From positions 1 to 33,771 of the IMG/VR virus record IMGVR_UViG_3300030430_003383: a DNA stretch of 33,771 nucleotides; one strand, written 5' to 3'. Positions 1,518-33,771 of the stretch are shown here, piece after piece. This DNA comes from a virus. The notes beneath the pieces were generated by a model, which did no database searches, had not been told where the DNA came from, and was given only the letters and a program-made list of their open reading frames with translations. The first letter of the stretch is position 1. Every line of letters begins with the position of its first letter. The position numbers and the translations under genes were made by a program.

Positions 1518-1935
1518 CATATCTACACTCAATGAACTGGCTGCTATGGCAAGGGACTTGTCTCCCGTTGCCAGCAGTCGTATTTTTGCTTCTCTTTATT
1601 ATAAGAACAAACCTATCTCATATGGTTACAATCATATGAAGTCTCATCCATTTCAAGCACATTGGGCTAAGAACGACGATGCGATCTACTGGCATGCCGA
1701 AACCCATGCCATATGGAATGCGTTGCGTATCTGTGATGAGGACGATCTAAAAAAGATGACTTTATATGTGTCAAGGGCAAGGCGACCAGAGAATGGTAAT
1801 CCAAAACAATGGATATGGGGTAATAGTCGTCCGTGTGAGGGGTGTATGTCTTGTTTGACTAAATACAATATAAAACGAGTAGTCTACACGCTAGACGACA
1901 TAGGCGAATACGGAGTCATCAATGGGAATTTTTAA
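1501..1935 (+). CDS. Cytidine/dCMP deaminase-superfamily protein
   Basis: The protein carries the zinc-dependent deaminase signature. H65-A-E67 (WHAETHAIWNAL) provides one zinc ligand and the proton-shuttling Glu, and P111-C112-E-G-C115 provides the two Cys ligands. It is about 144 residues, typical of the fold. No ATG serves as a convincing start. I used the TTG at 1501, which has GGTGGAAG at a suitable distance; an upstream in-frame TTG at 1477 is the alternative. Family members deaminate dCMP, cytidine, guanine or modified bases. The long insert between the two motifs (ARRPENGNPKQWIWGNSR) is not typical of T4 dCMP deaminase, so the substrate is open. It overlaps the next gene by 14 bases. 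Confidence 0.7.
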   Translation: MKNDRNISTLNELAAMARDLSPVASSRIFASLYYKNKPISYGYNHMKSHPFQAHWAKNDDAIYWHAETHAIWNALRICDEDDLKKMTLYVSRARRPENGNPKQWIWGNSRPCEGCMSCLTKYNIKRVVYTLDDIGEYGVINGNF

Positions 1936-2710
1936 ACAATATCTAACAGAGACTGTTGGTGCTGGTGGATTAGCATACGAGCTTAAAGTTCACACAGCTA
2001 TGAAAAAAGCTAATATTTCTGGATTAAATGTTGGAGATAAACCAGGCGCTGGATTTTCGAATCAAGGTGCTGGGGATATTGAAGCATCATATAAAGGTAA
2101 AGCGTTTAACATTGAAATTAAAGCAAGTCCAAGAGATCAGATGGGTGGAACTTCTTTTAGATATACGATGGATGGACAAAGGTTTACGCCTGTTAAGGAG
2201 ATGGACCCAGAAGATTTAGATTTATTCATGGCTGTTGCTAAAGAGCAAGCAGTTCATATTGATAATTACATTAAGGCATTGAGAAAAATTGAACCTGTAG
2301 AGTTTCATAAAACACAGAGTGGTGTGCCTATTAAAGCATCTAAAGATGCTAGAGAAGAGCTAAAGAAAAATGGCTTGATAACTAAAATTAATAGAAATAT
2401 TAAAACATCTACCTCTTTTATCATAAAACACTATAATAAAAAAGGCGTTTATTATATACAGATAGGCAAAGCAGGACTCTTTTACATGGGTAAAAATCCA
2501 CTAAAATTAGATGTCCCTGAACTTAAAGGTGAAATACAAGTAGAATTTAATTTAAGGTATGGTGGTGGAAAATTATCTTTTCCAACAGATCCACCTACAC
2601 CAGCTAGATCGGCTGGGCTAAGACTACAAGGTAGACTAATCACGAAAGGAAAATCTCCATACAGTTTAGATAATGTTGAAGATATTAAAAAGTTGTTTGG
2701 TGTAGAATGA
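1922..2710 (+). CDS. Putative capsid-targeted PD-(D/E)XK nuclease-like protein
   Basis: The 262-residue product shows a restriction-endonuclease-like core: E20 in an early helix, D52 in GAGDIEAS, and E65-I-K67 in FNIEIKAS, that is D-x12-E-x-K. Known PD-(D/E)XK enzymes bind Mg2+ with these residues. The extreme N-terminus (MGIFKQYLTE) resembles T4 capsid-targeting peptides, with L8-T-E10 fitting the gp21 protease rule (Leu/Ile)-x-Glu. The start at 1922 has GGAG six bases upstream. The gene overlaps the next by ATGA. The rest is lysine-rich with beta-rich C-terminal sequence that I do not recognise. Nuclease activity and packaging are inferences; a structural role is possible. Confidence 0.5.
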   Translation: MGIFKQYLTETVGAGGLAYELKVHTAMKKANISGLNVGDKPGAGFSNQGAGDIEASYKGKAFNIEIKASPRDQMGGTSFRYTMDGQRFTPVKEMDPEDLDLFMAVAKEQAVHIDNYIKALRKIEPVEFHKTQSGVPIKASKDAREELKKNGLITKINRNIKTSTSFIIKHYNKKGVYYIQIGKAGLFYMGKNPLKLDVPELKGEIQVEFNLRYGGGKLSFPTDPPTPARSAGLRLQGRLITKGKSPYSLDNVEDIKKLFGVE

Positions 2711-3936
2711 TACAACAAATCTTAACAGAAGCTAAGGAGGGCAAAAATGTCCATCTTGAACACATTGAAGACATGGTGTTCAATGAAGGTGTTACTGGCA
2801 CTCGTAATGCTATCTTATTTCTTCGCAGTATTCGTGATATGCTATCTGGAAATTCTTCCAGAAGCGTTAATATTACCACTAAATGGGATGGGGCTCCCGC
2901 AATCTTCGCTGGGATTGATCCTGCCGATGGGGCTTTTTTTGTAGCAAAGAAAGGTCTCTTTAACGCTGATCCTCAGATGTACAAGACTGAGGACGATATT
3001 AAGACAAAACTATCTGGAGAGCTACAAGCTAAGTTTCTTGTGGCTCTCCGTGAGTTCAAAAAGCTCGGCATCAAGTCTGGTGTATACCAAGGCGACTTGA
3101 TGTTCACTAAGGCTGATTTATCGAAAGAGAAAATTAAAGATCAAGACTATCTTACATTTCAGCCTAATACTATAGTATATGCTGTTCCTGCCTCTTCGCC
3201 TCTTGCAAAGAAGATTCGCAATGCCAGCATTGGTGTCGTGTGGCATACCACATATACAGGTAAGACCATTCAAGATATGAAAGCCTCTTTTGGTAAGGGT
3301 ATTATCAATAAGATGAATTCAGTGCCATCTGTATGGATGGACGATGCCACTTATAAAGACGTAAGGGGAACAGCTACGTTTACAAAAGAAGAGACAGCAA
3401 ATCTTACTGCTTTACTTTCACAAGCTGGTAAGATATTCTCTAAGTTACCAGCTAAAGCATTAAATGATATAGCAGGGAAAGAAGAGTTTCTAATTCGTTT
3501 AAAAGCGTTCAATAATACTAAGGTTAGGAAGGGTAAGTCTATTACTAGCGCCAGGAAACATGTATCTGAATTAATTAAATATTTTAAAGAGCATTATGAG
3601 AAAGAAGCCGATAAACGTAAAAGCGATAAAGGTAAACAATCTCAGCTTGATAAAATGAAAAATCTCATGACTTACTTTGATAATCACAGTAAAGATTTAG
3701 TAAAGATTTATGAGATTGTAATGCTTCTTACATCAGCTAAAGGTATGATTGTTCGAAAGTTAAATCAAGCTGGCTCTATACCTACCTTTTTAAGAACCAC
3801 CTCTGGGTTTCGTGTTACAGATCAAGAGGGTTACGTTGCTATTGATAAAGTTGGCGGCGCTATTAAACTTGTTGATCGTATGGAGTTCAGTCGAGCAAAC
3901 TTTTCTGCAGATGTTATTAAAGGTTGGCAAAGGTAA
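2707..3936 (+). CDS. Ligase-fold (covalent nucleotidyltransferase-like) phage protein
   Basis: The 409-residue protein contains motifs laid out as in DNA/RNA ligases and capping enzymes. Motif I is K59-W-D-G62 (NITTKWDGAPAIF), where Lys would form the AMP adduct. A motif III-like GVYQGDLMF lies at 125-133, with Asp in place of the usual Glu. Near the C-terminus are motif IV-like E374-G-Y-V and motif V-like IKLVDR with K387. The gap between III and IV is unusually long and filled with lysine-rich helices (about 220-350). The N-terminus MIQQILTEA has L6-T-E8, a possible prohead-protease site as in the preceding protein. It may act on nucleic acid ends or modify proteins; activity is unproven. 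I associate this family with T4-like marine phages but know no assigned function. Confidence 0.55.
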   Translation: MIQQILTEAKEGKNVHLEHIEDMVFNEGVTGTRNAILFLRSIRDMLSGNSSRSVNITTKWDGAPAIFAGIDPADGAFFVAKKGLFNADPQMYKTEDDIKTKLSGELQAKFLVALREFKKLGIKSGVYQGDLMFTKADLSKEKIKDQDYLTFQPNTIVYAVPASSPLAKKIRNASIGVVWHTTYTGKTIQDMKASFGKGIINKMNSVPSVWMDDATYKDVRGTATFTKEETANLTALLSQAGKIFSKLPAKALNDIAGKEEFLIRLKAFNNTKVRKGKSITSARKHVSELIKYFKEHYEKEADKRKSDKGKQSQLDKMKNLMTYFDNHSKDLVKIYEIVMLLTSAKGMIVRKLNQAGSIPTFLRTTSGFRVTDQEGYVAIDKVGGAIKLVDRMEFSRANFSADVIKGWQR

Positions 3937-3940
3937 ATAT

Positions 3941-3948
3941 TATAAATA
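3941..3948 (+). promoter_or_regulatory. T4-type late promoter (TATAAATA)
   Basis: An exact TATAAATA lies in the short intergenic gap, 39 bases before the ATG at 3988. T4-like phages read their virion genes from this -10 element with the gp55 sigma factor and gp45 clamp, with no -35 element. Its position in one of the few real gaps and in front of a virion-type gene supports function. Confidence 0.8.
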
Positions 3949-3987: not shown

Positions 3988-6948
3988 ATGAGTAAAACCG
4001 TCTTCGCCTTCGGGCGTATGAATCCCCCAACAATCGGTCACGAAAAGTTAGTCGCTAAACTAGAGAGCGAAGCGAAGCGCCGTGGCGCTATGCCTCATTT
4101 ATATCTAAGCCATTCTCAAAATCCTAAAAAAGATCCTCTGCCATATAACACAAAGATTGCAATCGCTCGTAAAGCGTTTGGTAAGATGGTAACCAAATCA
4201 TCTTCCAAAAATATTATCCAGATTCTACAAGAGCTAGAAAAGATGGGTCACACTGAGGTGGCTCTCATCGCTGGTAGTGATCGTGTACCAGAATTTAAAT
4301 CTCTCCTGAACAAGTATAATGGTAAAGAATATAATTTCAAAAAGATTGAAGTTATATCTGCAGGTGAACGTGACCCTGACTCTGAGGGTGTGTCAGGTAT
4401 GTCTGCTTCGAAGCTGCGTGCACTAGCTAAAGAAGGTGACTATGATGCATTCGCTAAAGGTATGCCTTCTAAACTAAGAGATGCAGATAAGAAAAAAGTT
4501 TATGATTCTATTCGATCTGCTATGGAGAGTTTTATTCTAGGTGAAGCACCAAGGATTCCTAGAAAAAAAGGTCAACCAGCAGGATCTGATAAGCACTCTG
4601 ATCTTTATACAGACGAAAATCCAGAAGGTACAATTCATGGATTGAAGTTTGCGACAGAGAAAGACGCAGAGGCTAGTGTTGCAAAAATCAAATCATCTGA
4701 TAGAACACATGCACATAAAATCCAGGCAGCAATTGCCATGGAACAACGTGCAAAAGTTGCTGGTAAAAAAGCAGCAGCGGCTGTTTATCGTTCATTTATT
4801 AATGATATGAAAAAGAAAACAAAAGAGATGAATAAAGAGGCAATTAAAATGACCGAAGAAATTATAACCGAGGATTTAGATCCAACTGATGAAGAATTAG
4901 ATGAAATTTTAGATGGATTGGACGACGAATTATCTTGGGAGTGGGAAGAAGAGCAACTAGATCTTGAATTAGAGGAGGATCGACAGCCATTAACGCTCGC
5001 TCAACGTATGAAAAGAAAAATTTTGATGAAGAGATTAGCTCCTCAGATTCAAAGAAAAAGAAAGATTAAAATGCGCCGGAAAGCTGGTAAAGAAGATTTA
5101 AAAAAACGAGCTAGGAAAGCAGCTATCTTATTATTAAAGAAAAAAGTAGCTGGTCAAAAAGGTGCAGATTACAAATCATTATCTCCAACTGAAAAGATTG
5201 GGATTGATAAAAGAGTGCAGAAAAAATTAGGTGCTGTTGATAAATTAGCTAAGAGACTAATGCCTAAGATGATTAAGAAAGAGACTGAGAGGGTTAAAGC
5301 TATGAGGTCAGGGAAAACTAATGAGGCGTTTGAGATGTTATTTGAGAAACCAAAGGTTTCTCAAGATCCAGATGTTGATGAGCGTCCTGGTTCTCAACCA
5401 AAAAAATATTTTTCTGGAGTTCGAAGAAAAAGTAAAGAGGCTAGAGCGAAACATTTTGAACGTGGCACTAAAATGGATGATGATAATCCAGCAGCATATA
5501 AACCTGCTCCTGGTGATGCTGGTGCAAAGACTAAACCATCCAAGCATACCAAAAAGTTTAAGCAGATGTTTGGAGAGGATATTAACGAAGCGTTTGAAAG
5601 GATTATGACTGGCCTTGATGAAGCGGCTGAATATCTAGAAGAAAAGCAAATTGATGCACTCAAGAAGAAGTCAGAGAAGACTGGCATTCCATATGGTATT
5701 CTAAAACAAGTTTACAATCGTGGTATGGCAGCATGGCGCACAGGTCATCGCCCTGGTACAACACCACAACAGTGGGCGTTTGCTCGTGTCAACTCATTTG
5801 CCACTAAATCAAAAGGCACATGGGGTGGTGCAGATAAAGACCTCGCTGCTAAAGCTCGTGGTTCTATGAAGAAAGAAGAAGTCAGTGAAGCAGATCCATG
5901 TTGGGATGGTTATACGCAAGTTGGCATGAAAAAGGGTGCTGGTGGTAAGATGGTCCCTAACTGCGTACCAGAAGAAGTCGAGGTCGAAGAAAAGGTAGAG
6001 TTTGAAAAAGACAAAGAGTTTTCTAATCTTCGTAAGCCTAAAAAAACTACAAAATTTGAGTTAGACAAGGAACTCCGTAAAAAATCTAAAAGAGAGGCAG
6101 TATCGCCAGCACAACAGGCTGCTATTGCAATCGCTAAGAAAAAGTCTGGTAAGTATGATGATGAAGGTAAAAGGATCGAAGAAGGTTCAGATATTTTACA
6201 GAGCCCACGTGATGGTATTCGTTTAATTGTTCGCAAGCATACAGATGGTAAGCGATATGTTCTGAAAATGATGACTCAAAATAAACCAGGTGAGCCAAAG
6301 ATTCTATCAAAGAAAGATGCTGAAAAACAAATCTCTGCGCTCAAGCGTCTGGGTTGGAAGAAGGCAACTAATGAAGAGGGTGGTGCTGGAGAAGAGGGCA
6401 CATACGAGTTAGTTAGAAAGTATAAAAAAGATACTCCTATGCAAGAGAGTGATGCCGTGAACGATTTAAAAAAAGATCATGATAAGGAGAAAGAAAGATT
6501 AAAAGACAAACATGATCGTGAGATGGATAATGCAAGATTACGTGATACAAGATCTAAAAATATGGATGAGGAGTTTGAAAGTCTTTTCGAAGAACCTTGC
6601 TGTGATGATTGCTTAGATGAGGATTATGGTTGGACAGAAGAAACAGATCTTGTTGTAATTAACGAGGCGGAGGCTGAATATCAAGGTCGTAAAGTGAAGT
6701 TAAATAATCCAACACGTTCTGACAATCCAAAGAAGAAAACAATGGTATACGTCAAGAATGATAAAGGAAATGTTGTCAAAGTTTATTTTGGCGATCCTAA
6801 TATGTCTATTAAACGTGATGACCCAGAAAGAAGGAAAAATTTTAGAGCTCGACACAACTGTGATAATCCTGGGCCTAAATGGAAGCCTAGATATTGGTCG
6901 TGTAAGTTCTGGAGTAGCAAAAAAGTATCGGACCTAATGAAAGGTTAA
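3988..6948 (+). CDS. HxGH nucleotidylyltransferase domain fused to virion modules
   Basis: Residues 1-180 form a HIGH-superfamily nucleotidylyltransferase of the NadM/phosphopantetheine type: GRMNPPTIGH with T15-I-G-H18, GSDRV at 96-100 and GMSASKLR at 137-144 (the ISxxxxR-like motif). Members transfer AMP or CMP to NMN, pantetheine phosphate or similar. The remaining 800 residues are highly charged, with modules at about 215-280 (THAHKIQAAIAMEQRA), 566-622 (GIPYGILKQVYNRGMAAWR) and 898-986 (FGDPNMSIKRDDPERR, RHNCDNPGPKW) that I recall from cyanophage-type virion proteins. (Leu/Ile)-x-Glu sequences sit between modules (184-186, 293-295, 451-453, 543-545, 866-868, 891-893), possible prohead-protease cuts. 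AAGGA precedes the ATG. It is preceded by a late promoter. Confidence 0.7.
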   Translation: MSKTVFAFGRMNPPTIGHEKLVAKLESEAKRRGAMPHLYLSHSQNPKKDPLPYNTKIAIARKAFGKMVTKSSSKNIIQILQELEKMGHTEVALIAGSDRVPEFKSLLNKYNGKEYNFKKIEVISAGERDPDSEGVSGMSASKLRALAKEGDYDAFAKGMPSKLRDADKKKVYDSIRSAMESFILGEAPRIPRKKGQPAGSDKHSDLYTDENPEGTIHGLKFATEKDAEASVAKIKSSDRTHAHKIQAAIAMEQRAKVAGKKAAAAVYRSFINDMKKKTKEMNKEAIKMTEEIITEDLDPTDEELDEILDGLDDELSWEWEEEQLDLELEEDRQPLTLAQRMKRKILMKRLAPQIQRKRKIKMRRKAGKEDLKKRARKAAILLLKKKVAGQKGADYKSLSPTEKIGIDKRVQKKLGAVDKLAKRLMPKMIKKETERVKAMRSGKTNEAFEMLFEKPKVSQDPDVDERPGSQPKKYFSGVRRKSKEARAKHFERGTKMDDDNPAAYKPAPGDAGAKTKPSKHTKKFKQMFGEDINEAFERIMTGLDEAAEYLEEKQIDALKKKSEKTGIPYGILKQVYNRGMAAWRTGHRPGTTPQQWAFARVNSFATKSKGTWGGADKDLAAKARGSMKKEEVSEADPCWDGYTQVGMKKGAGGKMVPNCVPEEVEVEEKVEFEKDKEFSNLRKPKKTTKFELDKELRKKSKREAVSPAQQAAIAIAKKKSGKYDDEGKRIEEGSDILQSPRDGIRLIVRKHTDGKRYVLKMMTQNKPGEPKILSKKDAEKQISALKRLGWKKATNEEGGAGEEGTYELVRKYKKDTPMQESDAVNDLKKDHDKEKERLKDKHDREMDNARLRDTRSKNMDEEFESLFEEPCCDDCLDEDYGWTEETDLVVINEAEAEYQGRKVKLNNPTRSDNPKKKTMVYVKNDKGNVVKVYFGDPNMSIKRDDPERRKNFRARHNCDNPGPKWKPRYWSCKFWSSKKVSDLMKG

Positions 6949-6955
6949 ATCCTTT

Positions 6956-6963
6956 TATAAATA
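6956..6963 (+). promoter_or_regulatory. T4-type late promoter (TATAAATA)
   Basis: A second exact TATAAATA lies in the 42-base gap, 27 bases before the ATG at 6991. It is spaced like the one at 3941 and again precedes a virion-type gene. Two perfect copies in the only two gaps of the late block argue against chance. Confidence 0.8.
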
Positions 6964-6990: not shown

Positions 6991-8370
6991 ATGTCAAACT
7001 TATTTAATAAACCAGATAACCTTGTTGATATGGTCCGTCAAATTATTTCTGGCGAACCAATCGAAGAGAAGAAGAAAGAAGAAGAACTTGATCCTGTTGG
7101 TAAAGAGGACGATGATGTAGATAATGACGGTGATGTTGATTCTTCTGACAAATATTTGAAGAAGCGTCGTAAGGCAATCTCAAAGGCTTTGAATGAGAAA
7201 GAGCCAAAGAAGAAAATCAATGCTTCTCATTGTGAAGAAGTCGAACTAGGTGAAAACTATAGAAAAGCTGCTCTCAAAGGTATTGGTGCTGAAACAGCAA
7301 ACAGTATAAAAGTTGGCACAGGTGTTGATTACTATAGTCCAAAAGACGGTAGTAAGCACATGGGCAAGATTACCAGAATGGATAAGAATGGATACGAGGT
7401 TAAAGATGATAAGACTGGTAAGACTTTTAAGTTTAAGTATTATTCTAAAGATGCAATGAAAGAGGAGACTCTTGACGAGGCTGAGCACGAGGACGGTGAC
7501 GGTGAGAAAATGACCGACGCTCAGAAAAAAGATATGGATGGCGACGGCGATAAAGAAAAAGCTGAAAAGAAGAAAAAGAAGAAAAAAGATGATGAGGATG
7601 GATCTGAAGAAAAACCTGATAAGGTCGATACAGAACCTGAGAAAGACGATATGAAGACAATGATGTCCGAGCGTGAGATGACAGATAAAGAGAAAGCCAA
7701 ACTCGACAAACTAAAGAAGAAGTACGAGGGCGGTGAGATGCATAAGTCAATGAAAGATCAGTATGGTGAAAAGGCTGATGCAGTTTTCTATGGCAAGCTA
7801 ACTAAAATGGCAATGGGTGAAGAAATCGATTTCAACGAATCTAAGTATAATAAGGATGCTGTAGATAAGGCGATCAAACGTGATCCTCGTATTAAAGGTA
7901 AAGAGGCTAAGATGATTCATCGCCTTTTGAAAGGTCGTACAGGTAAAAAAGAAGAAACTGATCTTGGCGAAGATGATCAAGAGCTTGGTAAAATTTCTAA
8001 GGAGCTAGATGGTGCATCAAAGATGCATAAAGGCCAAGCTGATAGAATCAGAAAAATGCTCAAAAAAGATGATGTGAAAGAAGCTAATGATGAAGAAAAC
8101 GACACTAATCTTATTATGCAACTTCGTAAAGCAGTTTCTTTGCGTGGTAATAAAGTAAAGTTTGGAGATGGTAAATCAGTTGTTGTCTCTGATAAAGATG
8201 CACAGAAGTTTATGGGTATGTTCAGCAAACTCAAGAAGCCCGTTGAAAAAGAAATGCTAATGAAGAGTGCTGCTAAGAGTCATAAACACTTTATGAATGC
8301 TCTTGCTGGCAAAGTAGAAAAACCAAAATCAGGTGGATTAGATTTACCAAAAATGAAATCGGAGAAGTAA
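6991..8370 (+). CDS. Acidic/lysine-rich virion-type protein with EF-hand-like loops
   Basis: This 459-residue protein is extremely charged. It holds two calcium-loop-like segments. Residues 42-53 (DVDNDGDVDSSD) match the dockerin/EF-hand pattern with Asp at loop positions 1, 3, 5, 9 and 12 and Gly at 6. Residues 181-192 (DMDGDGDKEKAE) have Asp at 1, 3, 5 and 7, Gly at 6 and Glu at 12. Between them lies a small beta-rich stretch (GKITRMDKNGYEVKDDKTGK), and a poly-lysine/Asp segment follows at about 185-215. The C-terminal part includes KHFMNALAGKV. Composition and late-promoter control suggest a scaffold, prohead core or tail-associated role, but no T4 homologue is recognised. GAGGAA precedes the start. 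Confidence 0.6.
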   Translation: MSNLFNKPDNLVDMVRQIISGEPIEEKKKEEELDPVGKEDDDVDNDGDVDSSDKYLKKRRKAISKALNEKEPKKKINASHCEEVELGENYRKAALKGIGAETANSIKVGTGVDYYSPKDGSKHMGKITRMDKNGYEVKDDKTGKTFKFKYYSKDAMKEETLDEAEHEDGDGEKMTDAQKKDMDGDGDKEKAEKKKKKKKDDEDGSEEKPDKVDTEPEKDDMKTMMSEREMTDKEKAKLDKLKKKYEGGEMHKSMKDQYGEKADAVFYGKLTKMAMGEEIDFNESKYNKDAVDKAIKRDPRIKGKEAKMIHRLLKGRTGKKEETDLGEDDQELGKISKELDGASKMHKGQADRIRKMLKKDDVKEANDEENDTNLIMQLRKAVSLRGNKVKFGDGKSVVVSDKDAQKFMGMFSKLKKPVEKEMLMKSAAKSHKHFMNALAGKVEKPKSGGLDLPKMKSEK

Positions 8371-9831: not shown

Positions 9832-10515
9832 ATGACCTGGCTTGTTGTATCACTATTATTAACGTTACCTTTGTTGGTAACGTGGTCTTACAGAGGCGGG
9901 TCAATCCCTGGTCAACAGAGTTGGGGGTTCGTGGGTAAATCACGTCCCCTTACTCTCCTTTCTACTCCTGTATTCATCGCCCTATCTTCGTGGGCAGTTT
10001 TACATCCATTCAATATGCATGAGTGGTTATTGTTTGGAGCTGGCATTGTGTTGTTCTTTGCTGCACAGACTCCTGGGTGGGGCGCACAGATGGATCTTGG
10101 CAGACATTGGAGTAAAGATGATGAATGGGGATATCAAATTAGAGATTGGATCTTTGGTAAAGAGAAACCATTACTTGATGAAAATGGAAATCAAATGACA
10201 CGTGATGGTAAGCTGATGATTATTGGTAATCATAAAAGAGACTTATGTGGGTTGTATATGCGAATGGCATGGTTTATTCTTCCGGCCATCGCTTGGTACT
10301 TTGTACATCCACTACTAGCACTGGTTCCACTATCTATGTTATTGTCACCCATGATCTGGAATCACGAATATAAAAACATTATTAAAAAAGGTAAACATCC
10401 ATCAGACGTTGTTCCGTTTGGTGGAGTGATTGGTCACTCTTGGGTAGAGTTTTACATTGGTGTTATGTTAATGATTGTAACAGCAGCGGTGAATACTCTA
10501 ATTTATATGACATGA
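9832..10515 (+). CDS. Multi-pass membrane protein, unknown function
   Basis: The 227-residue product has about five hydrophobic segments: near residues 2-18, 40-58, 66-80, 140-175 (possibly two) and 205-225. A polar loop (GRHWSKDDEWGYQIRDWIFG and downstream) lies between them. Conserved-looking Trp, His and Gly residues (TPGWGAQMDLGRHW, NHKRDLCGLYMRMAWF, GHSWVEF) suggest a folded membrane domain rather than a random small holin. No family is recognised. GGGGTAGGAG precedes the ATG. It overlaps the next gene by ATGA. A perfect hairpin lies just inside its start (listed separately). Confidence 0.6.
   Translation: MTWLVVSLLLTLPLLVTWSYRGGSIPGQQSWGFVGKSRPLTLLSTPVFIALSSWAVLHPFNMHEWLLFGAGIVLFFAAQTPGWGAQMDLGRHWSKDDEWGYQIRDWIFGKEKPLLDENGNQMTRDGKLMIIGNHKRDLCGLYMRMAWFILPAIAWYFVHPLLALVPLSMLLSPMIWNHEYKNIIKKGKHPSDVVPFGGVIGHSWVEFYIGVMLMIVTAAVNTLIYMT
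9862..9883 (+). repeat. Perfect 8-bp inverted repeat near a start codon
   Basis: ACGTTACC (9862-9869), a six-base loop and GGTAACGT (9876-9883) form a perfect stem beginning 30 bases inside the membrane protein gene. No T-run follows, so it is not a terminator. It might slow early elongation or bind protein, or might be chance. Confidence 0.4.
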
Positions 10516-10892
10516 TATTAACTGAAGATAACTTAGAGTTATTTGCTGCTAAGTGTTATATTAATAATAATTGCATTGATATTGATGAGTTCAAAGAGGA
10601 TTTTAGTCGACTTAAATATATCAAGAGATTAGTAAAAAGGTATGAGGTATACGGCGAATTAAGAGAAAGATTAATAATTAATCATTTAGTAATCATGTAT
10701 AATGTGTTTGAAGGTAAAGGTTGTACCAGGATGATATTTTATAAAATGCGTAAATCATTACCAGTTATTACACCGTTTCTTTTATTGCTCAAAAGGTTGC
10801 CCAAAGAAGTATTGAACGAAGATAATAAAGTTATTTACACAACAGATATTGTTATGGATCAAGATGTGATAACAGCACTAAGGAAAATTTAA
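10512..10892 (+). CDS. Conserved T4-like phage protein, unknown function
   Basis: I start this gene at ATG 10512, which overlaps the previous stop as ATGA; the longer frame from 10440 would run deep into the membrane protein gene. The 126-residue product has the pattern MILTEDNLELFAAKCYINN, DEFKEDFSRLKYIKRLVKRY, RLIINHLVIMYNVF and PFLLLLKRLPKEV, which I recognise as a small protein found widely in T4-like cyanophages. Its role is not known to me. It is helical and soluble, and is translated in a coupled run with the next gene (TAATG junction). Confidence 0.65.
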   Translation: MILTEDNLELFAAKCYINNNCIDIDEFKEDFSRLKYIKRLVKRYEVYGELRERLIINHLVIMYNVFEGKGCTRMIFYKMRKSLPVITPFLLLLKRLPKEVLNEDNKVIYTTDIVMDQDVITALRKI

Positions 10893-30442: not shown

Positions 30443-30454
30443 TTATACAGCAAA
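30430..30454. repeat. Inverted repeat spanning two convergent stop codons
   Basis: TTTGCTG (30430-30436) pairs with CAGCAAA (30448-30454) around an 11-base loop holding both stop codons (TAATTA, 30440-30445). There is no T-run on either side. It may stall transcripts from both strands or be chance. Confidence 0.4.
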
Positions 30455-30760
30455 ACTCTCCCCACACCCACATTGAGCAGATGCGTTTGGATTTACTACT
30501 TTGAGGTAAGAGCCACCTAGTTCGTTTACATAATCAATCGTACATCCAAGTATGAACATTTCGGCCATGTTGTCTATGACCAAAATATCATCTACCAATG
30601 TGCCCTCATCAGTAGTTTGTGCAAAGTCCCATTTGTATTGAAACCCGCTGCAACCTCCACTTAACACACTCAAATGAATGTACTTAGAGTCATTCGTATG
30701 CAACATATTACTTAGGTAATCTTTTGCATTTTGAGTGATGTTAAGTGGGAAGCTCTGCAT
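30443..30760 (-). CDS. iscA: IscA/HesB-type iron-sulfur carrier
   Basis: The 105-residue protein is an A-type Fe-S carrier. The three conserved Cys are C37 (LSGGCSGFQYKWDF) and C97-G-C99 (AQCGCGESF), the right spacing for the family. A-type carriers accept clusters and pass them to apoproteins. Phage-borne copies are known in T4-like marine phages. It could support host Fe-S enzymes during infection. It overlaps the upstream gene on this strand by one base and is the last gene of the minus-strand unit. Confidence 0.9.
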   Translation of the reverse strand: MQSFPLNITQNAKDYLSNMLHTNDSKYIHLSVLSGGCSGFQYKWDFAQTTDEGTLVDDILVIDNMAEMFILGCTIDYVNELGGSYLKVVNPNASAQCGCGESFAV

Positions 30761-31281: not shown

Positions 31282-33771
31282 TTAATCCTTGTACTGTGAG
31301 TCTATGAGTGAGTCCATTTGCATATTTTGTGCATCAGTCAATATATCAGCGAATGGGTCTACCATTTGAGGCAAGTCATATATTTGTGTGTCAATATACC
31401 AAGTGGTTCTATCTTTTAATATAGCACTCTGATAATCGCTGAAACCAGCAGTATCAGCAAGTGAAGTCATCAGTGTAAGTCGAGTAGCATCGACTTGAGC
31501 CATACTAACATTTTGATTCTGTAGAACTCGTGTCAAAATCTTTTGAGCAATCTTCTGCTTCATTTCTTGCTTCTTTTGCTCAGTAGTTTTAGTTTTAGTC
31601 TGTTTACTTTCCGCTTTTTGTGTAGTCTTTTGTTGCGAACTTTTAGAATCATTTTTGCTTTCATTGGATGCAGTCTCCTGCTTTTGAGGTTCCGAATCAT
31701 TACTATCTTGTGAACTCTCCTGTTTTGTTTCAGAAGAACTTTCTGGTTCTGACTCCTGTTGTGGTTGTGCCTCTGCTGTCTGCTGCTCTGGCTCAGACTC
31801 CTGTTGTGGTTCTGCAGTCTGTGGTTCTGGTTCTGGTTGAGACTGTTGTGACTCAGGCTCAGAAGATTGTGTTTCTACCTCCACAGACTGTTGTGGCTGC
31901 GCTTCAGTTTCAGTAGTTGCTGGTGCATCGTTTGTTTCTCCAATAACTATATCACCACTTTGCGAGGGCTCCATTGGTTCACTTGGAGCAGCATCAATAT
32001 TAGCCATTTCAGTCACTGCCTCAGACACAGCACTTTGCATATCTTGTGGTCCCCCATCCATTGCTGGCATATCAACCGATGAACTTACATCTGGCATATC
32101 AGTATTAGATGCAAGATTCGGGCCGGTTTCAGCCATTTGTGGCATTTCAGGCATCATTTCTGGCATAGGTTCCATATTTGGCGCTTCCATAGTAGGTGGT
32201 GCCATAGATGTATCACTTGCCATGTCATTTGTAGATACAGGCTGCGGCATTGGTGCGCCCATATCGCTCATCTCAGGTGCCATGTCAATGCTAACAATCT
32301 CAACCTGCACAGAACCAGTGTCATCAATCTTTAGATCAACAGTCATGTTTATGATATCACCAACACCATCTGATACAGCGACTTCAATCGTGTCTAACAT
32401 ATTATCAATATGCTCTTGTGTTACTTCTGGTAGCTCTGGTTCCTCTTCAATTTCAACAATCACGACCTCAGTATCTTCTATGATCTCGGGCAAATCAACC
32501 GTGATCTCTATGATCTCTGTTTCTGGTTCTGGTTCTGGTTCATTCCAATCACCAGCATTATTATTGTTATCACTATTATTGTTATTGTCATGTCCTTGAT
32601 CTTGGTCTTCAATAGTCTCAGTAATCGTTTCGATTATAGTCTCAACTACATCCTCAACTGTCTCTGTAACTGTGTCATCTTCTACATCGTCATCGTCAAC
32701 TGTAGTAATCGCATCATCGGCTGTAGTATCTTCTGTAGTATCAACAACGATTTCAATCTCAATAGTTTCCTCTGTTTCTTCTACAGGTTGTTCAATTACT
32801 ACGTCAGTGGTTTCGGTATCAGTCGTGGTGTCCTCTGTTGTCGTTTCCTCTTCAGTTTCAATAGTGATAGTTGTAGAGGCACTCTCTGTCGCTGTTAGTT
32901 GTGTAGTAATATATTCAGTAACCGTATTTGTAATCTGTTGTTCTATTTGCTGTATGACAGTCTGATACAAGTTATGTGTAATAGTTACACTTGGGTTTTT
33001 AAGAAGTGGACCAAGATAGGTTGGTTGACCATCACCTCTCGTGCCATCACTCAAATCATAGTTGCCTACATCGTATCCATAGCCTTGTATCGTTGCCGTA
33101 GCAGAACTGGTTAGATTATTCTGTGGCACAGTCAATGAAGCAGAATAAGATTGAAAATTTGTAGGTCCATTGTCGATTGTATGAGTCGTGACACTTTGAT
33201 AGCTTTCACTACCATCGGTAACTGTTATAGTCATGGTAAAAGAGTCTGCTGGTCCACCAGTGCTTGAAGTACACTGAAATGTAGTTTGTGTATTAAAACA
33301 ATTTAACATATCAGCTTGTGTGTCAATATCAAAGCCACCCTGCCACTGTTCTTCTGTCATGTAACTATTCAGATTAAACTGTGAGGTCACCGTGCCACCA
33401 TTAGGACCAAATATCAGCATCGTGCCAGATACACTGTCATTCGAGCCATAGTTGTGAACATCACCACTGTACGATGGGTCTATATCCTCTAGAACATTGT
33501 CTGTCGTAGTTGTACCAGATACTTCTCTTGTCTCAACCTGTGTAATCTGAGTTGTGACAACTTCGCTGGTCGTAGCTTCGATAATCTCTTCAACGTATGT
33601 GGTTTCGATAGTCGTAGTTTGCTGGTCGCCAACTGTCGTTACAACAGGGTCGCCATCAGTAGACGTAACTGTGACTTGTGTGATTGTACCACCATTTGGT
33701 CCAGTATCGCCGGGTTGATATTGCTGGTCATATGCTAGAACACTTGAAGAACATAATAGAAGAAAAGCAAA
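31282..33771 (-). CDS. Large low-complexity secreted/virion protein, 5'-partial
   Basis: The frame is open from the stop at 31282 through 33420 (an internal ATG) to the right edge, giving at least 829 residues. The edge reads FAFLLLCSSSVLA then YDQQ, which looks like the end of a signal peptide, so only a few codons are missing. Numbered from the internal Met at 33420: beta-rich sequence to about 160; Thr/Glu/Asp-rich 180-335; Asn run 279-288; Met/Pro-rich 380-480; Gln/Glu/Pro/Ser 500-580; Lys-rich 590-625; and a folded-looking helical end (TRVLQNQNVSMAQVDATRLT). No family is recognised. Large disordered export suggests a surface or injection role. Starting at 33420 instead would leave no signal and is not preferred. 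Confidence 0.7.
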   Translation of the reverse strand, partial: FAFLLLCSSSVLAYDQQYQPGDTGPNGGTITQVTVTSTDGDPVVTTVGDQQTTTIETTYVEEIIEATTSEVVTTQITQVETREVSGTTTTDNVLEDIDPSYSGDVHNYGSNDSVSGTMLIFGPNGGTVTSQFNLNSYMTEEQWQGGFDIDTQADMLNCFNTQTTFQCTSSTGGPADSFTMTITVTDGSESYQSVTTHTIDNGPTNFQSYSASLTVPQNNLTSSATATIQGYGYDVGNYDLSDGTRGDGQPTYLGPLLKNPSVTITHNLYQTVIQQIEQQITNTVTEYITTQLTATESASTTITIETEEETTTEDTTTDTETTDVVIEQPVEETEETIEIEIVVDTTEDTTADDAITTVDDDDVEDDTVTETVEDVVETIIETITETIEDQDQGHDNNNNSDNNNNAGDWNEPEPEPETEIIEITVDLPEIIEDTEVVIVEIEEEPELPEVTQEHIDNMLDTIEVAVSDGVGDIINMTVDLKIDDTGSVQVEIVSIDMAPEMSDMGAPMPQPVSTNDMASDTSMAPPTMEAPNMEPMPEMMPEMPQMAETGPNLASNTDMPDVSSSVDMPAMDGGPQDMQSAVSEAVTEMANIDAAPSEPMEPSQSGDIVIGETNDAPATTETEAQPQQSVEVETQSSEPESQQSQPEPEPQTAEPQQESEPEQQTAEAQPQQESEPESSSETKQESSQDSNDSEPQKQETASNESKNDSKSSQQKTTQKAESKQTKTKTTEQKKQEMKQKIAQKILTRVLQNQNVSMAQVDATRLTLMTSLADTAGFSDYQSAILKDRTTWYIDTQIYDLPQMVDPFADILTDAQNMQMDSLIDSQYKD

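Follow-up and report, generated by a model that had tools for sequence, protein, structure and literature searches.

A shared N-terminal leader suggests that a nuclease-like protein and a ligase-fold DUF6267 protein are probably carried in the head of a marine T4-like phage

Are two enzyme-like proteins, encoded side by side in an uncultured virus, carried in the phage head and delivered to the host together with the DNA? The question is raised by IMG/VR record IMGVR_UViG_3300030430_003383, a genome fragment that was analysed over its whole 33,771 nt (33.8 kb; hereafter the window). Two adjacent open reading frames (ORFs) on the plus strand, at 1922–2710 (262 amino acids) and 2707–3936 (409 amino acids), overlap by 4 nt; positions and translations agree with an original prediction that described them as a nuclease-like and a ligase-fold protein with N-termini of the phage T4 capsid-targeting type. 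The second protein belongs to Pfam family DUF6267, and the nearest annotated relatives of both genes are in Kyanoviridae (Methylophilales phage Melnitz-3 and marine cyanophages). We infer, with a probability of roughly 0.78, that a marine T4-like phage carries both proteins in its virion, loaded by means of an N-terminal tag, cut by the prohead protease gp21 and ejected with the DNA. The tag itself is very probably a capsid-targeting sequence (CTS).

In T4 IPIII, residues 4 and 7 are needed for targeting and residues 8 and 10 for processing, and gp21 cuts after L/I-x-E (PMC9026906). The nuclease-like protein begins with MGIFKQYLTE (1922–1951) followed by TVG, and the DUF6267 protein with MIQQILTE (2707–2730) followed by AKE, placing Leu-Thr-Glu at residues 8–10 and 6–8, as had been noted. 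F4, Y7, L8 and E10 of the first leader agree with the T4 CTS determinants, and cleavage is predicted after Glu10. An [LI]xE motif lies within residues 7–14 of an ATG start in 93 of 115 de-duplicated homologues, and the 75 distinct leaders of the two families yield the consensus M-x-x-[FL]-x-x-[FY]-[LI]-x-E. Most DUF6267 homologues show the residue 4 and 7 pattern, and relatives have complete 10-mers (for example MKKLSTFITE and MIKLSEYLTE); the closest relative of the window protein (locus L039, 76–77% identical) carries the full form MIKLSEYLTEAKEGKN. Glu8 of the DUF6267 leader is invariant in 45/45 marine homologues although other leader residues vary. Both leaders fall outside the confident fold in structure models, with a predicted local distance difference test score (pLDDT) below 50 at residues 1–11 of the nuclease-like protein and 1–15 of DUF6267, and the modelled peptides are probably disordered. 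A cause at the DNA level, such as a promoter or ribosome site overlapping the start of the gene, was rejected: when identical residues were compared at the four key positions, 2340 of 4900 pairs differed in codon. These residues vary synonymously, which places selection on the peptide.

A bare [LI]xE is weak evidence, ending at any given early position in ~1% of ORFs. The raw N-terminal LxE was rejected as a criterion because a loose pattern gave p 0.09 in cyanophage S-CREM2 and because it admitted a false-positive family with the start LxE-N-xLFA. These small proteins (window 10440–10892 and homologues) start with L-(T/N)-E-x-N-(F/Y)-x-L-F-A, mimicking the LxE of the tag, and the S-SCSM1 copy is not marked as a virion protein; the family, which is conserved, is thus a source of false positives. 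N-termini were scored with a position matrix trained on the nuclease and DUF6267 families only, with the window, T4 and the named phages excluded. The held-out nuclease-like gene scored 20.8, and the next best score in the window was 9.3. Among 30 T4 proteins, ipIII, ipII and ipI ranked at the top. The virion proteome of S-CREM2 comprises 52 detected proteins of 219 annotated (PMC10665884); the four highest-scoring of the 219 were all found in virions by mass spectrometry (p = 0.003, a value that, like all matrix p-values here, ignores relatedness among training genomes), as were five of the top six. The top four were a cytidylyltransferase (MKNFSSFLTE), ORF13 (MKDLHSFLTE), a kinase (MKRFDAFLTE) and ORF136, and the tagged virion cargo of this phage includes an S-AdoMet lyase-family protein (Pfam S-AdoMet_lyase) as well as the kinase, which has a weak Pfam match. 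Outside the two training families, 90 of 1233 ORF starts (7.3%) in the loci compared scored above 12, as compared with 8 of 6846 internal Met positions (0.12%) and 0.15% of shuffled N-termini.

Tagged enzymes also occur in other cyanophage proteomes. Cytidylyl/nicotinamide mononucleotide (NMN)-adenylyltransferases have been detected independently in virions of S-SM1 (PMC3037559), S-SCSM1 (PMC9602691) and S-SZBM1 (PMC9146016), where they begin with MKKFSAFLNE, MKSFLQFLKE and MRFRQFIIE, respectively, and also in S-CREM2. A protein kinase has been reported in S-CRM01 virions, and the kinase gene g130 of this phage, which lies in the same neighbourhood, begins with MISFDQFLSE. Authors of two of the proteome papers themselves raised the concern that such enzymes may be co-purifying contaminants, in which case the link between tag and virion would be accidental. 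We give this account hardly any weight: the same tagged family was detected repeatedly (S-SM1, S-SCSM1, S-SZBM1 and S-CREM2), and in S-CREM2 the tagged proteins rank top, whereas the virion table contains no polymerase, helicase, recombinase or ribonucleotide reductase. The match to CTS residues, the recovery of T4 internal proteins and the enrichment for virion proteins were tests open to failure, and all of them support the T4-style targeting that was originally proposed.

Further backing comes from the range of proteins that bear the tag. It was found on ~24 additional protein groups, an approximate figure because one group is a single short ORF and the largest is joined partly by charged sequence. 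This cargo includes cytidylyltransferases and a HAD-type protein that matches a polynucleotide kinase weakly (phrog_415, E 4e-4); Pfam searches of the tagged cargo mostly returned no match, apart from one Zeta_toxin-type kinase and one weak NTP_transf_2. In three cargo families the leader may be short (10 residues) or ~30 residues long, and each form ends in [LI]xE. One of the three is the nuclease domain, which is preceded by MGIFKQYLTE in the window and by MSNLNHYVRQLRPRTESYTPHVDRIQSILTE in loci L014 and L015; the other two swapped cargoes are KAEDYEAA (L119 versus L084/L092) and TVSPDYQS (L111 versus L085). Because the same cargo is found with either leader type, leader and cargo are separate modules that meet at the predicted cut site. 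A longer leader, ending in ITE (MKTFKEFTSTTTPVSTITE), is present on T4 IPI as well.

The protease and a matching capsid site can be followed in related genomes. Of 13 genomes checked, 11 have a gp21 homologue (PF03420), among them Melnitz-3 and six IMG/VR genomes in which DUF6267 bears a leader; in those six, five leaders end in [LI]xE and one in VxE. Capsid proteins of these genomes keep a site aligned to FLTE/A of T4, in the forms FLSE/A, LLGE/A, LFE/A and FTE/A. The N-terminal peptide could instead be an amphipathic docking or regulatory helix whose likeness to the T4 CTS is convergent; the pattern is short, and some raw LxE N-termini do belong to the unrelated small-protein family that is absent from the virion listing. 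We consider this highly improbable, given that all four mapped CTS positions agree, that the matrix recovers T4 internal proteins and virion proteins on which it was never trained, that swapped leaders end exactly at [LI]xE, and that gp21 and matching capsid sites co-occur with the leaders. Regarding expression, the T4-type late promoter-like octamer TATAAATA lies within 150 bp upstream of 43 of 209 tagged genes and 89 of 1074 others (related sequences counted), a distribution that supports, but does not prove, late expression of the tagged genes.

Several observations weigh against assigning the two window proteins to the virion. No gp21 gene was found in the window, which is a 33.8-kb fragment, and no TATAAATA octamer was found upstream of 1922 or 2707. 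The DUF6267 leader of the window is an 8-mer with a matrix score of 3.9, a shortened and weaker copy of the tag. A partial literature search found no virion proteome for a phage with a tagged nuclease or tagged DUF6267, and fold searches with the nuclease model gave a weak outcome, with nothing significant from Foldseek. Many virion proteins encoded in the same region are untagged, indicating that the tag is not the sole route into the virion. Finally, some distant homologues lack the leader, namely the P-SSM2 nuclease and the DUF6267 proteins of S-SM1, S-SZBM1, S-CREM2, S-WAM2 and S-CRM01; packaging is therefore not essential to the function of either enzyme. On the supporting side, the untagged DUF6267 proteins of S-SZBM1 and S-CREM2 are missing from the virion lists of these phages (two cases only).

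Additional leader-like arrangements were seen apart from these tests. A second, longer leader of 28–35 residues (MSxxxYVRQLRPRNESYVPHVDKVQNLLxE), ending in [LFI]xE, is found at the start of many unrelated proteins whose genes lie directly ahead of DUF6267; examples are L014:5981-6073 and tagged-gene starts in L019, L081, L082, L084, L085, L086, L088, L092, L097, L101, L107 and L110. In L018 the tagged nuclease is followed by two more tagged genes (L018:2986-4077 and L018:4077-4970) in place of DUF6267, and one of their products has a K-V-D-G motif, possibly marking another ligase-type enzyme. ORF 12 of S-CREM2 (L137:7704-10313), a virion protein annotated as a Cas9 nuclease, has no Pfam match and contains a tag-like peptide within a longer N-terminus, KKPLRFASFMAE followed by AAV; the start of S-CRM01 g128 is similar. 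The small S-SCSM1 virion protein gp93 (L153:7627-7836) has a tag-like C-terminal end, KRTFKEFLEYIE. Cleavage at the C-terminus is a feature of T4 Alt as well.

What enzymes would be delivered? The domain that follows the first leader (1952–2707; phrog_26930) was predicted to be of the PD-(D/E)xK nuclease type, with an active-site stretch running from E20 through D52 to E65-I-K67 (1979–2122). E20, D52, E65 and K67 are unchanged in 23/23 homologues, including that of P-SSM2, down to 26% identity. In the AlphaFold2 model (mean pLDDT 82), D52 immediately precedes a strand, and E65-x-K67 directly follows the neighbouring strand that comes next. The best structural neighbour was HhaI endonuclease (Z 4.9, root-mean-square deviation 5.3 over 167 residues), a weak match; the neighbours listed contained neither resolvases nor other PD-(D/E)xK families, a result that excludes nothing. 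No Pfam match was found for this protein, and a search against sequences of solved structures gave nothing meaningful. The part of the nuclease claim that concerns the motif thus held, with invariant residues on the expected strands, while the fold search contributed only a weak restriction-endonuclease match. As in known PD-(D/E)xK nucleases, of which HhaI is the nearest, there is a helix Glu, the order D...E-x-K and the corresponding strand placement; unlike them, the protein bears a capsid leader, and it shows a weak fold match and no sequence match. On balance it is likely to be a PD-(D/E)xK nuclease. The weak structural neighbour and the lack of matches to Pfam or solved structures would be in keeping with a DNA-binding protein that has this fold but is inactive or non-catalytic; such a protein, however, would not be expected to retain all four predicted active-site residues in 23 sequences of at least 26% identity, and we regard it as unlikely.

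The assignment of the second protein is firmer. It matches DUF6267 (PF19782) with E 5.5e-104 and 348.9 bits against a curated cut-off of 27, and this family matches in 446 phage records, almost all cyanophages. The K59-W60-D61-G62 motif (2881–2892), singled out originally as a ligase signature and containing the lysine predicted to be nucleotidylated, is unchanged in 47/47 aligned sequences. Also invariant across these 47 are G129-D130 (candidate motif III, 3091–3096), E374-G375 (candidate motif IV) and K387 (candidate motif V; 3826–3867 for the two together). The spacing from E374 to K387 is 13 residues, as against 14 for E312–K326, the residues mutated in structure entries of the Naegleria ligase. 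The candidate motif III, assigned on sequence, carries Asp. Many ligases have Glu at motif III.

Structure prediction bore out the ligase fold. The AlphaFold2 model of DUF6267 has a mean pLDDT of 85.8, and ligases account for all 50 structural neighbours listed (VIA-align). They include the Naegleria RNA ligase (Z 8.4, 183 residues), fungal Trl1 (7.8), T. brucei REL1 (7.7), T4 Rnl2 (7.6), T4 Rnl1 (7.0) and human DNA ligase I (~6.5). A Z of ~8 alone is not decisive; the assignment is strong because 50/50 listed neighbours are ligases and the motif order is invariant. A sequence search of DUF6267 against solved structures gave nothing meaningful. Compared with RNA ligases (Naegleria, T4 Rnl2, T. 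brucei REL1 and fungal Trl1), the protein has the same fold and the same order of K-x-D-G, E-G and Lys motifs, but it lacks sequence matches to solved ligases, has Asp at candidate motif III, and carries both a capsid leader and a ~125-residue helical insert before motif IV (residues ~227–353 of the domain at 2731–3933). Based on the model and the conserved motifs, DUF6267 is very probably a ligase-fold nucleotidyltransferase, and lysine-AMP formation and strand sealing would be its predicted activity. No paper naming DUF6267 was found, a weak absence given that the literature search was made without most subscription journals.

How might the leader and the enzymes work together? For these two proteins we infer packaging, cleavage, ejection and substrates as follows. 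The short N-terminal leader would dock each enzyme in the prohead core, gp21 would cut after (Leu/Ile)-x-Glu, and the mature enzyme would stay in the head. By analogy with T4, the mature nuclease and the RNA-ligase-like DUF6267 would then leave with the DNA, and their action would precede all phage gene expression. Because beta-galactosidase and other foreign fusions can be delivered by T4 through the CTS (PMC9026906), the size of the cargo presents no difficulty. One T4 internal protein, IPI, inhibits a host restriction system; another, IPIII, is required in a particular E. coli strain. From this analogy early action of the nuclease and the ligase on DNA or RNA would be expected. In the first minutes they would most likely process nucleic-acid ends and counter defences: host or competing DNA would be cut by the nuclease, and nicks or ends in phage DNA, or in RNA that a host defence has cut, would be sealed by the ligase. 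Such a division of labour after entry is a tentative proposal and somewhat doubtful.

The leader could also be a genuine core-binding and cleavage signal on proteins that mainly serve head assembly or DNA packaging (for example by trimming or sealing DNA) in the producing cell, instead of acting as effectors once the next host is entered. T4 gp22, gp67, gp68 and the protease sit in the prohead core, where most of them are cut, and in cyanophages the nuclease and DUF6267 also exist in untagged form and so are able to act in the producing cell. T4 proteins with exactly this type of leader, however, are the ejected internal proteins, and the cargo is diverse and exchangeable, including the S-AdoMet lyase-family protein and kinase of S-CREM2, as would be expected of host take-over more than of assembly. 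The gene position preceding DUF6267 is hypervariable. On this evidence an assembly role is improbable, and delivery into the host remains our preferred interpretation.

DUF6267 lies within 2.5 kb downstream in 26 of 38 nuclease loci (window counted), and four of the remaining loci are truncated. The hypervariable slot immediately upstream of DUF6267 (L039–L118) holds nucleases, a HAD-type protein and many unknowns, often tagged, and resembles an internal-protein exchange site. A 53-member cluster of genes upstream of DUF6267 was considered as a set of nucleases and dropped, having been joined partly by the common long leader. A wider scheme, which we put forward with the odds somewhat against it, is that marine T4-like phages share an exchangeable leader of ~10 or ~30 residues that injects a large, fast-changing enzyme set. 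This set might comprise the nuclease, DUF6267, cytidylyl/NMN-adenylyltransferase, HAD phosphatase-like protein, kinase, S-AdoMet lyase and others; DUF6267 would be an unrecognised virion-delivered ligase in an entry-time kit for processing and repairing nucleic acids, possibly paired with end-processing enzymes from the variable slot just upstream.

The targeting principle is already known from T4. Like T4 IPI, IPII, IPIII and Alt, the nuclease-like protein and most homologues of the DUF6267 protein have a 10-residue leader with hydrophobic or aromatic residues at 4 and 7, Leu/Ile at 8 and Glu at 10; the cargo is variable, and related genomes have a gp21 homologue and a matching capsid site. 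The differences are that a predicted nuclease and a protein of ligase fold take the place of small internal proteins or an ADP-ribosyltransferase as cargo, that packaging would here be by analogy, and that marine phages use a second, ~30-residue leader interchangeably. As far as our sources show, four things are new: the kinds of cargo, the assignment of DUF6267 to the ligases, a second leader that can replace the first, and the ability of a matrix to pick known cyanophage virion enzymes; beyond a mention in a reference list, a partial literature search found no paper joining capsid targeting with cyanophages. Cyanophage studies have repeatedly found enzymes in virions and been unable to tell cargo from contaminant, and a common leader would offer both a mechanism and a predictive test. 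The leader points to proteins that would act before phage genes are transcribed, it would extend the T4 internal-protein system both to new enzyme types and to phages that abound in the ocean, and it gives DUF6267 a likely activity. Naturally evolved leaders of this kind may also be usable for loading proteins into phage heads.

Several further genes of the window deserve mention. An octamer TATAAATA, identified by pattern match at 3941–3948, precedes a gene at 3988–6945 whose 986-residue product resembles cytidylyl/NMN-adenylyltransferases (phrog_3041/395, cytidyltransferase), relatives of which were detected in cyanophage virions. This protein lacks an N-terminal tag, has a charged low-complexity tail of ~800 residues with DUF5824, and partially matches phrog_455, a profile that also covers DUF6267. 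Its tail contains several internal tag-like sites, e.g. KKFKQMFGE and EEFESLFEE. The virion-associated cyanophage cytidylyl/NMN-adenylyltransferases (T4-GC190 family) resemble the proteins studied here in neighbourhood, often being the next gene, and in the leader on tagged copies; the window copy differs in having no leader and a ~800-residue tail. Among the published virion reports on this family that were examined, none gave a targeting mechanism. The next gene (6991–8367), preceded by TATAAATA at 6956, encodes an untagged, charged low-complexity protein that is likely to be late and head-associated; similar charged proteins come after the cytidyltransferase in P-SSM2 and S-SM1. Models of defence systems gave no match, and NCBIfam gave nothing useful. 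On the minus strand, a 712-residue ORF at 31282–33420 has no Pfam or PHROG match, and a small protein encoded at 30443–30760 resembles, by eye only, an A-type iron-sulphur carrier.

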